64,000 nt of DNA from Actinacidiphila guanduensis (GTDB lineage: Bacteria > Actinomycetota > Actinomycetes > Streptomycetales > Streptomycetaceae). The DNA is taken from assembly GCF_900103985.1 (NCBI RefSeq), contig NZ_FNIE01000008.1, positions 62,001 to 126,000 on the forward strand. Direction: 5' to 3'. Positions 3,014 to 11,267 of the stretch are shown here, one piece after another (positions within the stretch are counted from its first letter, which is position 1; every line of letters begins with the position of its first letter). The notes below the pieces were generated by a model. It ran no database searches. It was not told the DNA's origin and saw nothing but the letters and a program-made list of their open reading frames with translations. Position numbers and translations under genes: made by a program.

Positions 3014-3916
3014 TCACAGCTGCAGGAACCCCTCGATGCGCGGCCGCAGGGTCGCCGCCGTCAGGCCGTGGGCCCGCGCGTGGTCCGCGGCGGTGCCGTA
3101 GCGGCGCAGTTCCGCGCGGCGCGTGCCGAGCGCGAGAATCCGGTGGGGGAGCGCGGAGAGGGCCTCGGTCGCGAACGGCGTGGAGGTGCCCGCGAGGTAG
3201 GGCTCCACCAGGATGAGGTCGGGGTGGTCGGCCCGCCCGACCGCCGCGGCGACACCGGCGGCGTCGAAGGGCCGCACCGTCGAGGCGTACAGGACGCTCA
3301 CGTCCAGCCCCTCGGTCGCCGCCAGCACGGGGTCCAGCATCGGCCCCACCGCGAGCACCACGCCCGCCCGCCCCTCGCGCACCTGCCGGAAGCGGCCCGG
3401 TTCGATGGGCCGCGCCGCCGCGTTCGCCTGGTCGCTGAGCCGGACGTAGACGCGGGTGTCGCCGTCCGCCGCCGCGTGCCGCAGCAGCGCCTCGGCCTCG
3501 TCGGGGTGGCCCGGCACGTGCACCGTCCAGCCGTCGAGCGTGTCGAGCAGGGCGACGTCGCCGGGGCACTGGTGGGTGCGCCCCGCGGCCGCGCTGTCGT
3601 ACGAGGCCGCCGCGCTGACCAGCACCGCGCCCACGCCCTGGTGCCCCAGGTCCAGCTTCACCTGCTCGAAGGGGCGCTCGATGAGGAAGCTCGCGAAGGT
3701 GTGCACGATCGGCCGCAGCCCCGCCAGCGCGAGGCCGCCCGCCGCGCCCACCAGGAGCTGCTCCCTGATCCCGACGTCGATCACGCGGTCCGGATGCGCC
3801 CTGGCGGCCTCGGCGAAGCGGTCGCCGGAGATCACCGCGAGGACGACGGCCAGCCGCGGGTCGTCGTCCAGCAGCCGGCTCACGACGCTGCCGAAGCGGT
3901 CGCGCATGGTGTCCAT
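3014..3916 (-). CDS. Transketolase, C-terminal subunit (Pyr and C-terminal domains)
   Basis: Second half of a split transketolase: it contributes the pyrimidine-binding half of the thiamine diphosphate site and the C-terminal domain. The 300 residues start DRFGSVVSRLL and carry DVGIREQ with E52, equivalent to the Glu that activates the cofactor N1', followed by the FASFLIERPFEQV stretch. It follows the N-terminal subunit gene with a 27-bp gap, so the two are one operon. A full enzyme would act in the pentose phosphate pathway, or supply sugar precursors as split transketolases do in some secondary pathways. Its partner appears 5'-truncated, so the pair may no longer be functional. Confidence 0.85.
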   Translation of the reverse strand: MDTMRDRFGSVVSRLLDDDPRLAVVLAVISGDRFAEAARAHPDRVIDVGIREQLLVGAAGGLALAGLRPIVHTFASFLIERPFEQVKLDLGHQGVGAVLVSAAASYDSAAAGRTHQCPGDVALLDTLDGWTVHVPGHPDEAEALLRHAAADGDTRVYVRLSDQANAAARPIEPGRFRQVREGRAGVVLAVGPMLDPVLAATEGLDVSVLYASTVRPFDAAGVAAAVGRADHPDLILVEPYLAGTSTPFATEALSALPHRILALGTRRAELRRYGTAADHARAHGLTAATLRPRIEGFLQL

Positions 3917-3943: not shown

Positions 3944-4522
3944 TCAGCTCTTCGAAGCGACCCGGGCGACGACCACGTGCGGCCGCCCAGGATGCGGCGC
4001 GGTGAACGCCTCGTACAGCGCGCGGTGGTCGCGGCCGTCCACCGTCGCGGTGGACCAGCCCTCGGCGGCGAACCGCGGCGCGAGGCCGCCGGGCCAGCCG
4101 TATGTCGCCGAGGCGTTGTCGACCACGACGGTGTGCAGCCCCTCCAGGCCGACCGCGCCGGCGAACTGCACGGCCTCGAAGTTGCTGCCCTCGTCCATCT
4201 CGGCGTCGCCGACGAGCACCCACACCCGCGCCTCCGTCAGTCCCTGGGCCCGCAGGCCCAGCGCGGTGCCCACCGCCAGCCCGAGGCCGTGCCCGAGCGA
4301 GCCGGAGCCGATCTCGACGCCCGGCACGAGCGTGCGGTCCGGGTGCTGCCCGAGCGGCGAGTCGTACGAGGCGAAACCGGGCAGCCACTCGACGGGCAGG
4401 AAGCCCTTGGCGGCGAGCACCGCGTAGTACGCCATCGGGCCGTGGCCCTTGGAGAGCAGGAAGCGGTCGCGGGCGGGGTTCTCGGGGTCACGGGGGTCCA
4501 CGCGGGACGACCGGCTGACCAT
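3944..4522 (-). CDS. Transketolase N-terminal subunit, apparently 5'-truncated
   Basis: Carries the thiamine diphosphate/Mg-binding half of a split transketolase. Visible motifs are SKGHG (24-28) and the metal/cofactor motif GDAEMDEGSN (105-114). The product is only 192 residues; N-terminal subunits are usually about 230-280. Homology begins abruptly at PENPARDRFLLSKGHG, which normally lies about 45-50 residues into the protein, so the first helix with its GSGHP-type motif is missing. The ATG at 4522 lies inside sequence that codes for the SoxR-like helix-turn-helix on the other strand, and an in-frame stop lies a short way upstream, so no longer form exists. A deletion or rearrangement joining two gene 5' ends explains this best; an assembly error is the alternative. 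Confidence 0.7.
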   Translation of the reverse strand: MVSRSSRVDPRDPENPARDRFLLSKGHGPMAYYAVLAAKGFLPVEWLPGFASYDSPLGQHPDRTLVPGVEIGSGSLGHGLGLAVGTALGLRAQGLTEARVWVLVGDAEMDEGSNFEAVQFAGAVGLEGLHTVVVDNASATYGWPGGLAPRFAAEGWSTATVDGRDHRALYEAFTAPHPGRPHVVVARVASKS

Positions 4523-4976
4523 CGGCGAACTCGCCGCCCGCAGCGGCTGCGCGACCTCGGCGCTGCGCTACTACGAGGAGATCGGCCTGATCACGGCCGA
4601 GCGCACGGCGGGCGGTCAGCGCCGCTACCGCCGGGCGACCCTGCGCCGCCTCGCCTTCGTCCGCGCCGCCCAGCGCATCGGCCTCACCCTGGAGGAGGTC
4701 CGCACCGCGCTTTCCGCCCTCCCGGCCGACCAGGTCCCCTCGGCCGCGGCCTGGAACCGCGTGGCCCGCACCTGGCAGCGGCGCATCGACAGCCAGATCG
4801 CCGAGCTCCAGCAGTTGCGGGACCAGCTCACGGGCTGTGTGGGCTGCGGCTGCCTCTCGCTGACGAAGTGCGCGCTCTACAACCCGGCCGACACGGCCGC
4901 GTCTGCGGGCCCGGGGGCCCGCTACCTCCTCGGGGAGGGGCCGCCTGCGGCGGGGGAGGAGGGTCGCGGGGGGTGA
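4449..4976 (+). CDS. soxR: SoxR-like MerR-family redox regulator, start region damaged
   Basis: MerR-type regulator with a [2Fe-2S] sensor. The winged helix-turn-helix starts at LTIGELAARSG; a dimerisation helix follows, then C130, C133, C135 and C141 in the CX2CXCX5C arrangement of SoxR, within GCGCLSLTKCALYNPAD. In Streptomyces SoxR responds to redox-active metabolites. There is no ATG or GTG in frame: only a TTG at 4449, deep inside the opposing transketolase gene, or a non-standard CTG at 4518. The usual dozen N-terminal residues before LTIGEL are replaced by translated transketolase antisense. The gene has probably lost its native start and promoter; whether the TTG is used is unknown. 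The Gly/Glu-rich C-terminus runs into a G-rich spacer. Confidence 0.7.
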   Translation: MESRKRSRAGFSGSRGSTRDDRLTIGELAARSGCATSALRYYEEIGLITAERTAGGQRRYRRATLRRLAFVRAAQRIGLTLEEVRTALSALPADQVPSAAAWNRVARTWQRRIDSQIAELQQLRDQLTGCVGCGCLSLTKCALYNPADTAASAGPGARYLLGEGPPAAGEEGRGG

Positions 4977-5197
4977 GGGCCGCTTGTCGCGGCTGCGTGC
5001 TCGGGGGTTTGCGGGTTCGCTGGTCGCGGCGCGGTGCTTGGGGGGTCGGCGGGTGCACTTGTCGTGGCGCGTGCTCGGTGAGTCACGGGTTCGGCCACGC
5101 GGCCTGCGCGAGGTGGAGGGGGGGTGGGCGGTGCGAGGTGTTTGGGGGCGTGGGCCTTTGGGCTCAAGGGGAGCATCAGCCCCCGGGGGGGCCTGGG

Positions 5198-5470
5198 GTG
5201 GTCGGGGCCGCTGGGCTTGCGTCGGGCGGGGGTCCCGGTGGGTAGGGGGTCGAAGTGGTTGGGTGCGTTGAGTCGTGTGGGGGTGGGGGCCTGGTGGGTG
5301 GTGTCTGGGGTGGTTGGGTGCGTTGGGCGCGTGTCGGTGCGGGGCCCTGGTGGGTGCGGCTGGGGGGTCGGGTGCGCTGGGGTTGTGTGTGGGGGCTCCG
5401 GTGGGCACGGGGTCGGGGCTGTTGGTCGCGTTGCGTTGTGTCGGGGCCGCGGCGTTGCGTGTGCGCTGCT
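5198..5470 (+). repeat. Degenerate ~55-bp G-rich tandem repeat in a 557-bp gene-free gap
   Basis: The gap 4977-5533 has no convincing gene. Its + strand is strikingly rich in G and T. From about 5198 a unit of about 54-56 bp recurs around five times; its head is GTGGTTGGGTGCGTTG or a close variant at about 5199, 5255, 5310, 5364 and 5418, each followed by a variable block ending near GGTGGGNNNGGGGTCGGGG. A second pair, TGTCG(C/T)GGC...GTGCTCGG...GGGTTCG, occurs at about 4984 and 5060. The opposite strand is open over most of the region but would code for a Pro/His/Arg-only peptide, which I regard as an artefact. Confidence 0.6.
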
Positions 5471-5533
5471 TCGTCGCAGGCGCGTTGCTTAATCGGTGTG
5501 CGCCGCGGGTGGGAGGCGCGGCATCATGCGGGG

Positions 5534-6103
5534 ATGACTGCCGCTGTGGATGTGCCGCGTCTGGCCGCCGATGGGGGGCTGGTGCTGCGGGGCTGGGAGT
5601 TGGGTGACCTGCCGCTGGTCGAGGAGGCGTCCGGGGATGGCTACATTCCGCTGATCACCACCGTTCCCCCCGTGTACTCGCAGGCGGAGGGCGAGGCGTT
5701 CGTCAGGCGCCAGTGGCGGCGTACGGCAACAGGCGTCGGGTACCCATTCGTCATCGAACGGGTCGCGGACGCCCGGCCTTTGGGGACGGTCGGCCTGTGG
5801 CTCCGCGAGGTGGGCGAAGGGCGCGCCACCCTCGGCTACTGGCTGGCCGGCTCCGCCCGCGGCCGCGGGGTCGCCGCCGACGCCCTGCGTGCGGTGTCTC
5901 GTTGGGCCCTGGAAGAGCTGCGCATCCCGCGGCTGCAGCTCTACGTCGAGCCGTGGAACACGGCGTCCCGCAGAACCGCCGAGCGGGCGGGTTTCCGGAG
6001 CGAGGGCGTGTTGCGGGGGTGGCAGCAGGTGGGCGCGGAACGCAGGGACATGATCATGTATGCGCGCCGCTCGACCGACGAGGTGCCAGGGGACGGCAGC
6101 TGA
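5534..6103 (+). CDS. GNAT-family N-acetyltransferase (RimJ/RimL-like)
   Basis: Acetyl-CoA-dependent acetyltransferase of the GNAT superfamily, RimJ/RimL branch; the substrate may be a protein N-terminus, a small amine or a drug. The 189 residues show the typical layout: LVLRGWELGDLPLVEE at the start, FVIERVADARPLGTVGL (strands 2-4), the acetyl-CoA loop GSARGRGVAADALRAV around residue 115, then LYVEPWNTASRRTAERAGF, the conserved NxxSxxxxExxGF region of this branch, and EGVLRGW near the end. I chose ATG 5534 because conserved sequence begins a few residues later; upstream frame is repeat-derived. The gene stands alone after the G-rich repeat. Confidence 0.88.
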   Translation: MTAAVDVPRLAADGGLVLRGWELGDLPLVEEASGDGYIPLITTVPPVYSQAEGEAFVRRQWRRTATGVGYPFVIERVADARPLGTVGLWLREVGEGRATLGYWLAGSARGRGVAADALRAVSRWALEELRIPRLQLYVEPWNTASRRTAERAGFRSEGVLRGWQQVGAERRDMIMYARRSTDEVPGDGS

Positions 6104-10536: not shown

Positions 10537-10989
10537 CCCAACTGCCAAACGGTCATTCCCGGAGCGTGGAAGCCGCGTCGGCAGCAGAGGGAGTGGAAAC
10601 GGGGGAAGGTGCGTGGACGTCTGCCGCGGACGGAAGTTTCCATCCGGCCGCGACCGGGATACGTGTGCGGGGCAAAGAGGCGCGCCCCCTGCATTCTTGA
10701 GTTCGAGAATCACCCGATGCCCCGGTACGGCAGGTGTTGCGCACGACAGGAACGGAGGCGCGCGAAGAGCGCCGGCTCGTGCCCAGCCGGTGCACCGTAC
10801 ACGCAGGAGACCGACCGCAAGCGCACCCGCCCCCGGAACCCCCGCCACAAGAAACCCGCGGACTTCCGTCCCGGCCAAGCCCCCACCGCTCGTACCCGGC
10901 GCCCGAGAACCCCAACAGGCCCGACGAGCGGTCGCCCCCACCCGGCAGGCCCTGATGCCCCCTCAAGCACGAAGCCGACCGCAAACAAG

Positions 10990-11150
10990 ACGGCTCGCCG
11001 CACGGCACGTACGCCCCCGCACCCCCCGTACGAGCCGCCCCACCGAACCCCGCACGCGCCCGCACCCCTCGTACGAACCGCCCCACCGACCCCCCGCACG
11101 CACCGGCACCCCCCGTACGAAAAGCCCCAAGCAACCCCCGTACACAAGAA
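10990..11150 (+). repeat. C-rich degenerate repeats with CCGTACGA cores
   Basis: The gene-free stretch 10537-11160 is C- and A-rich on the + strand. Between about 10990 and 11150, units of about 46-50 bp recur around three times, each with a core like CCCCGTACGA(A/G)CCGCCCCACCGA followed by CCCCGCACG. The strand skew is opposite to that of the repeat at 5198-5470. A short hairpin, ATTCTTGAGTTCGAGAAT, lies at about 10694. Both strands are open over long distances here but only code for Pro/Arg- or Gly/Arg/Val-rich peptides, so I call no gene. Confidence 0.5.
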
Positions 11151-11160
11151 GCCGCACCTC

Positions 11161-11202
11161 TTGACATACCCCCACCCCTGGCAGCAACGTTTGGCAACGT
11201 TG
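11161..11202 (+). promoter_or_regulatory. Candidate promoter with CAACGTTG-type operator before the giant GH2 gene
   Basis: TTGACA at 11161-11166 matches a -35 element. Where the -10 would fall lies a quasi-palindrome, CAACGTTTGGCAACGTTG (11185-11202, 14 of 18 symmetric). A repressor bound there would block the promoter. The same CAACGTTG core occurs in the palindromes before the GH127 gene. Confidence 0.5.
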
Positions 11203-11267
11203 TCAGAGCCGAGTTGAGCCGGGGGACGCTCCACTCCAAGACCCTCCCGGGATTGGACATTCCGCAC

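Follow-up and report, generated by a model that had tools for sequence, protein, structure and literature searches.

A soxR-like gene and the gene for the N-terminal subunit of a split transketolase run into each other head to head in the stretch of DNA analysed here (64,000 nt, called the window). This arrangement was probably produced by a deletion of about 210–300 bp, which, judging from the sequences of relatives, would have cut off the front of the transketolase N subunit and the start of soxR, along with the promoter/operator region between them. Compared with its relatives, the window lacks a stretch of DNA but keeps the order and orientation of the genes, and the missing piece has no match in the rest of the assembly; half of the congeners carry a direct repeat at the positions of the break. 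Unless it is an assembly error, this is a small gene-loss event of an ordinary kind, whose novelty lies in the instance alone; it shows cleanly how a single short deletion would put out of action a regulator together with the promoter that it probably controls and the gene behind that promoter.

The positions of the reading frames and of the junction are collected in Table 1. The C-subunit gene lies downstream of the N-subunit gene on the same strand, and its 300 codons were 74–82% identical to those of 14 congeners. In the N-subunit ORF, true transketolase homology was found from 3944 to about 4504, the remainder on the ATG side being antisense SoxR sequence, and the Transketolase_N match covered profile positions 41–228 of 334. 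Genuine soxR sequence starts between 4497 and 4509. The TIGR01950 match of the SoxR ORF (187.1 bits against a curated cut-off of 116.9) extended over protein residues 23–161, leaving 22 residues at the front that are not SoxR sequence. The HTH was complete, as was the C-x2-C-x-C-x5-C motif (CVGCGCLSLTKC), four cysteines that we take to be the 2Fe-2S cluster motif of SoxR. The only in-frame ATG, GTG or TTG available to this ORF was the TTG at 4449, which sits within antisense transketolase sequence, and no obvious ribosome-binding site was seen before it by eye. The short sequence TCCACGCG (4497–4504) could form the terminus of either homology, read as transketolase R-V or as SoxR S-T-R. The first-pass annotation had described an overlap of about 74 bp between opposite-strand 5′ ends, a SoxR gene without a normal start codon, and an abrupt end of both homologies near 4500–4515. 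These descriptions were borne out by the ORF calls, by a sole start codon lying outside the true SoxR homology, and by the limits of homology given above. For annotation, caution is advised, as the start of neither ORF is reliable as called.

Table 1. Reading frames and junction in the affected part of the window
Feature	Coordinates	Strand	Evidence
Transketolase C-subunit gene (split transketolase, 300 aa, intact)	3014..3916	-	Transket_pyr PF02779, E 1.5e-26
Transketolase N-subunit gene, truncated (192 aa, ATG)	3944..4522	-	Transketolase_N PF00456, E 4.1e-23, and relatives
SoxR ORF as now readable (first start TTG, 175 aa)	4449..4976	+	TIGR01950, 187.1 bits
Head-to-head overlap of the transketolase-N and SoxR ORFs	4449..4522	both	ORF calls, 74 bp
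Probable deletion junction	4497..4508		Comparison of both anchors with relatives

Comparison with relatives was carried out on 96 transketolase loci (16 from a genome search and the best 80 of 512 named records); L021 recurs unaltered over its whole length within L143 and is thus a duplicate record, leaving 95 distinct loci. Through this identity one congener genome, G012, was recognised as Actinacidiphila glaucinigra CGMCC 4.1858, so that the genus of the window is probably Actinacidiphila, one of the streptomycetes. The intact, separate genes that the first-pass annotation had proposed to look for in close relatives were indeed found: 27 of the 96 loci (26 of the 95 distinct ones) carried a divergent soxR beside the transketolase, with an intergenic region between the two. 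Fourteen of the 26 belonged to congeners, which were the closest genomes compared and whose pairs showed 75–89% DNA identity over long pieces. In the remaining 69 loci no SoxR-like match was obtained at E 1e-10, and a search for neighbouring SoxR-like genes gave just two matches, at E 0.50 and 0.97. The distance from the anchor RDRFLLSK of the transketolase to LTIGE of SoxR was 254–348 bp (median 278) in the 27 rows but 44 bp in the window, where 210–304 bp are thus missing; of the events suggested earlier, a deletion joining two genes fits these distances. Both genes had in-frame starts in all 27 rows. An overlap conserved across many species, which would have pointed to a genuine pair, was looked for, and none of the 27 intact pairs had the short overlapped form.

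The extent of the loss was estimated on both sides. Measured back from RDRFLLSK, the intact pairs run for 56–89 codons (median 62) to the most distant in-frame ATG of transketolase-N. About 11 genuine codons of this stretch survive in the window, which puts the loss at 45–78 codons (median about 51); the loss of 45–50 N-terminal residues first proposed was therefore about right. For soxR, the nearest ATG or GTG lies 5–10 codons (mostly 8) before LTIGE; the window keeps 2–6 of these codons and has lost the start codon with roughly 2–5 further codons, only a very small part of the SoxR protein. When the junction was queried against 394 genomes of the family, 123 gave a match (the window's own included), and, among the matches listed, a single unbroken alignment spanning both sides was obtained from no genome other than the window's own. 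The one borderline row of this query, G090, was found to have its soxR start intact. In another relative, Streptomyces sp. SM1 (L129), an in-frame stop was noted in the conserved N-terminal segment of transketolase-N, immediately ahead of position 6001, where the match begins; it may be a loss or a sequencing error.

The gap between the two genes in the relatives contained a SoxR-box-type dyad, CTTCAAG-N4-CTTGAAG, with near forms. The strict pattern was present in 23 of the 27 rows, and a strict or looser form with TTGAC alongside in 25; in the remaining two rows (L023 and L026) a variant of the dyad can be made out by eye. Read towards the transketolase, also by eye, the layout is TTGAC(C/T), 19 bp and CANNNT, a long spacer typical of promoters activated by MerR-type regulators. 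No strict dyad was found in the whole window, and the relatives' operator type gave no match with at most one mismatch elsewhere in the window's genome. With a wider pattern one site was obtained in that genome, beside another gene: the sole match there to the strict SoxR-box pattern (L153, G000:C24:299475-299492), at most a candidate SoxR site, adjoins an ORF of GntR-like appearance by eye. Nine of the 14 congeners that have the pair carry a strict SoxR-box at this locus and nowhere else in the genome; in three it is one of several, and two have no strict site; given a single site in nine of 14, SoxR may be a local regulator there.

Loci with no adjacent soxR were scanned for the same kind of promoter. 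The promoter-dyad pattern (up to three substitutions) occurred within 500 bp upstream in 67 of these 69 loci and in none of 1208 further pieces of 500 bp taken from these loci. Since the strict SoxR-box was confined to 16 of the 69, loci that lack an adjacent soxR may be controlled by a different regulator. The 67 loci (within L070-L148) thus show a MerR-type-like dyad promoter before a split transketolase, on which a regulator encoded elsewhere may act. In Streptomyces avermitilis, an excerpt of a published study places a SoxR binding site in the promoter of the putative transketolase SAV_1623 (PMC4146615); as far as that excerpt goes, the link between operator and transketolase has therefore been published in part. 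It was the only relevant paper on SoxR with transketolase among the matches listed, and a literature search on split transketolase returned no paper from the collection searched. SoxR presumably regulated the transketolase genes in the ancestor.

The ancestral locus would have been a divergent module, with soxR on one side, the split transketolase (N then C subunit) on the other and, between them, the transketolase promoter, whose long spacer held the SoxR-box dyad. A short direct repeat of about 5–8 bp, common to the R-V codons of the transketolase and the S-T-R codons of soxR, probably mediated the deletion, which would have eliminated the transketolase N-terminal end and the start codon of soxR with the promoter/operator region that separated them; slippage on a short repeat or end joining is the mechanism that we infer. 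At the two break positions, a direct repeat of 5–6 nt, mostly ACCCG(C), was found in seven of the 14 congeners; the repeat run was 0–4 nt in the other seven and 0–3 nt in 12 rows outside the genus (duplicate L143 left out). At the junction in the window, 8 bp are readable from either side provided that one extra codon (GAC) is allowed on the SoxR side, and fewer than 8 bp are shared when it is not. The repeat in half of the congeners thus supports a short-repeat deletion, though it does not prove it.

To see how far the remnants had decayed, Pn/Ps of the window was set against that of 13 or 14 congeners, L019 being left out for transketolase-N because of a frameshift. The window gave 0.305 for transketolase-N (others 0.214–0.305) and 0.431 for SoxR (others 0.332–0.505). 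For transketolase-C its value of 0.377 was the highest of the set (others 0.272–0.349), which is a weak hint of relaxation. Invariant columns were changed in the window at 3 of 112 positions in transketolase-N, 0 of 64 in SoxR and 3 of 162 in transketolase-C, against leave-one-out counts in the relatives of 0–3, 0–4 and 0–9, respectively. Decay as a clock gave no clear signal, Pn/Ps of both remnants lying inside the range of the relatives, and was set aside. Such little decay implies a recent event, a retained function or an artefact; a recent deletion is favoured over an artefact because the break shares just a few bases, and the event was presumably recent. In L019 (G030) itself, the transketolase-N frame on the minus strand is split by the frameshift at about 1676–1784, either a second, independent lesion or a sequencing error.

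Both genes of the window are presumably non-functional now. Its SoxR lacks the start codon and the upstream region that the relatives have, and its transketolase lacks the N-terminal segment aligned with SGH of 6yak, which is present in the relatives and whose His we take to be catalytic. Contig C16 of the genome carries a separate transketolase gene of full length (775.6 bits). No second SoxR above the TIGR01950 cut-off was found in the genome, and the seven of 14 other SoxR-search matches that were scanned (L006-L012) all lacked the cysteine motif. SoxR above the cut-off was likewise missing from 12 of 35 genomes of the genus; absence of SoxR therefore appears to be tolerated in the genus.

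Other explanations of the junction were weighed against a deletion. A less likely but serious rival is that the intergenic region is complete in the strain and that the assembler or the library dropped 200–300 bp of it. In its favour, the two remnants retain open frames with hardly any decay, no second genome with the junction appeared among the matches listed for the 394 family genomes, and a dyad is present in the relatives' version of the missing region. However, the junction shares only about 5–8 bp, and assemblers normally use word lengths far greater than this, so few shared bases are not a usual basis of collapse. The missing piece was also on no other contig (for the missing transketolase end, no match in the assembly was better than E 0.07), the assembly looks good (8.2 Mb in 33 contigs, completeness 99.99, no N in the window), and seven of the 14 congeners show the kind of direct repeat that a biological deletion would be expected to use.

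The open frames could also be taken at face value, as a functional new pair in which translation from TTG 4449 yields a SoxR extended by 22 residues and freed from its operator, while ATG 4522 starts a shortened transketolase. The complete HTH and cysteine motif of SoxR and its lack of decay at the invariant columns would agree with this, yet we consider it very improbable: the operator is lost, the transketolase has lost a conserved segment (EKHDPAATS in L025) aligned with SGHPGGSLS of 6yak, and none of the intact pairs has the arrangement. A crude sigma-70 consensus scan of 4300–5100 also found no promoter-like site, a result of little power as none was expected in shuffles either. Still further from credible is an inversion or translocation joining two unrelated loci. 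Both homologies do stop abruptly at one point, as such an event would have it, but in the relatives the same two genes adjoin in the same relative orientation, and the inversion put forward by the first-pass annotation does not fit and was rejected on that ground. A deletion between two genes that were already neighbours thus remains the preferred reading.

Besides the junction, the window contains stretches of skewed composition. Just after soxR, 4977–5500 is G/T-rich and strongly strand-asymmetric, with GC skew up to 0.53 and AT skew down to -0.81, and is made up in part of degenerate tandem units of 37 and 55 bp. No comparable skew was found in the 500 bp after soxR in any of the 27 relative rows. 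In a second stretch, 10826–11250, GC and AT skew are strong and run in the same direction, with a sign opposite to that of 4977–5500.

With respect to known systems, the window ORF shares with SoxR (TIGR01950; 2zhg) a score above the cut-off, the HTH and the C-x2-C-x-C-x5-C motif. A chain of 2zhg, named SoxR, was its best solved match (E 1.1e-37) and had the same cysteine spacing when aligned. It differs from SoxR in that its start codon and first residues are replaced by antisense transketolase sequence and its upstream region is lost. The split-chain transketolase N-terminal component 6yak was the best solved match of the intact relative's protein P0001 (L025; E 1.4e-31). As in the congeners, the window has the adjacent C subunit of such a 6yak-type split transketolase, whereas its N-subunit copy is missing the N-terminal part, and with it the segment that aligns with SGHPGGSLS. 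Like SAV_1623 as described in the excerpt (PMC4146615), to which the likeness concerns the promoter site only, the intact relatives carry a dyad resembling the SoxR-box before the transketolase gene, whereas in the window this operator appears to have been deleted.
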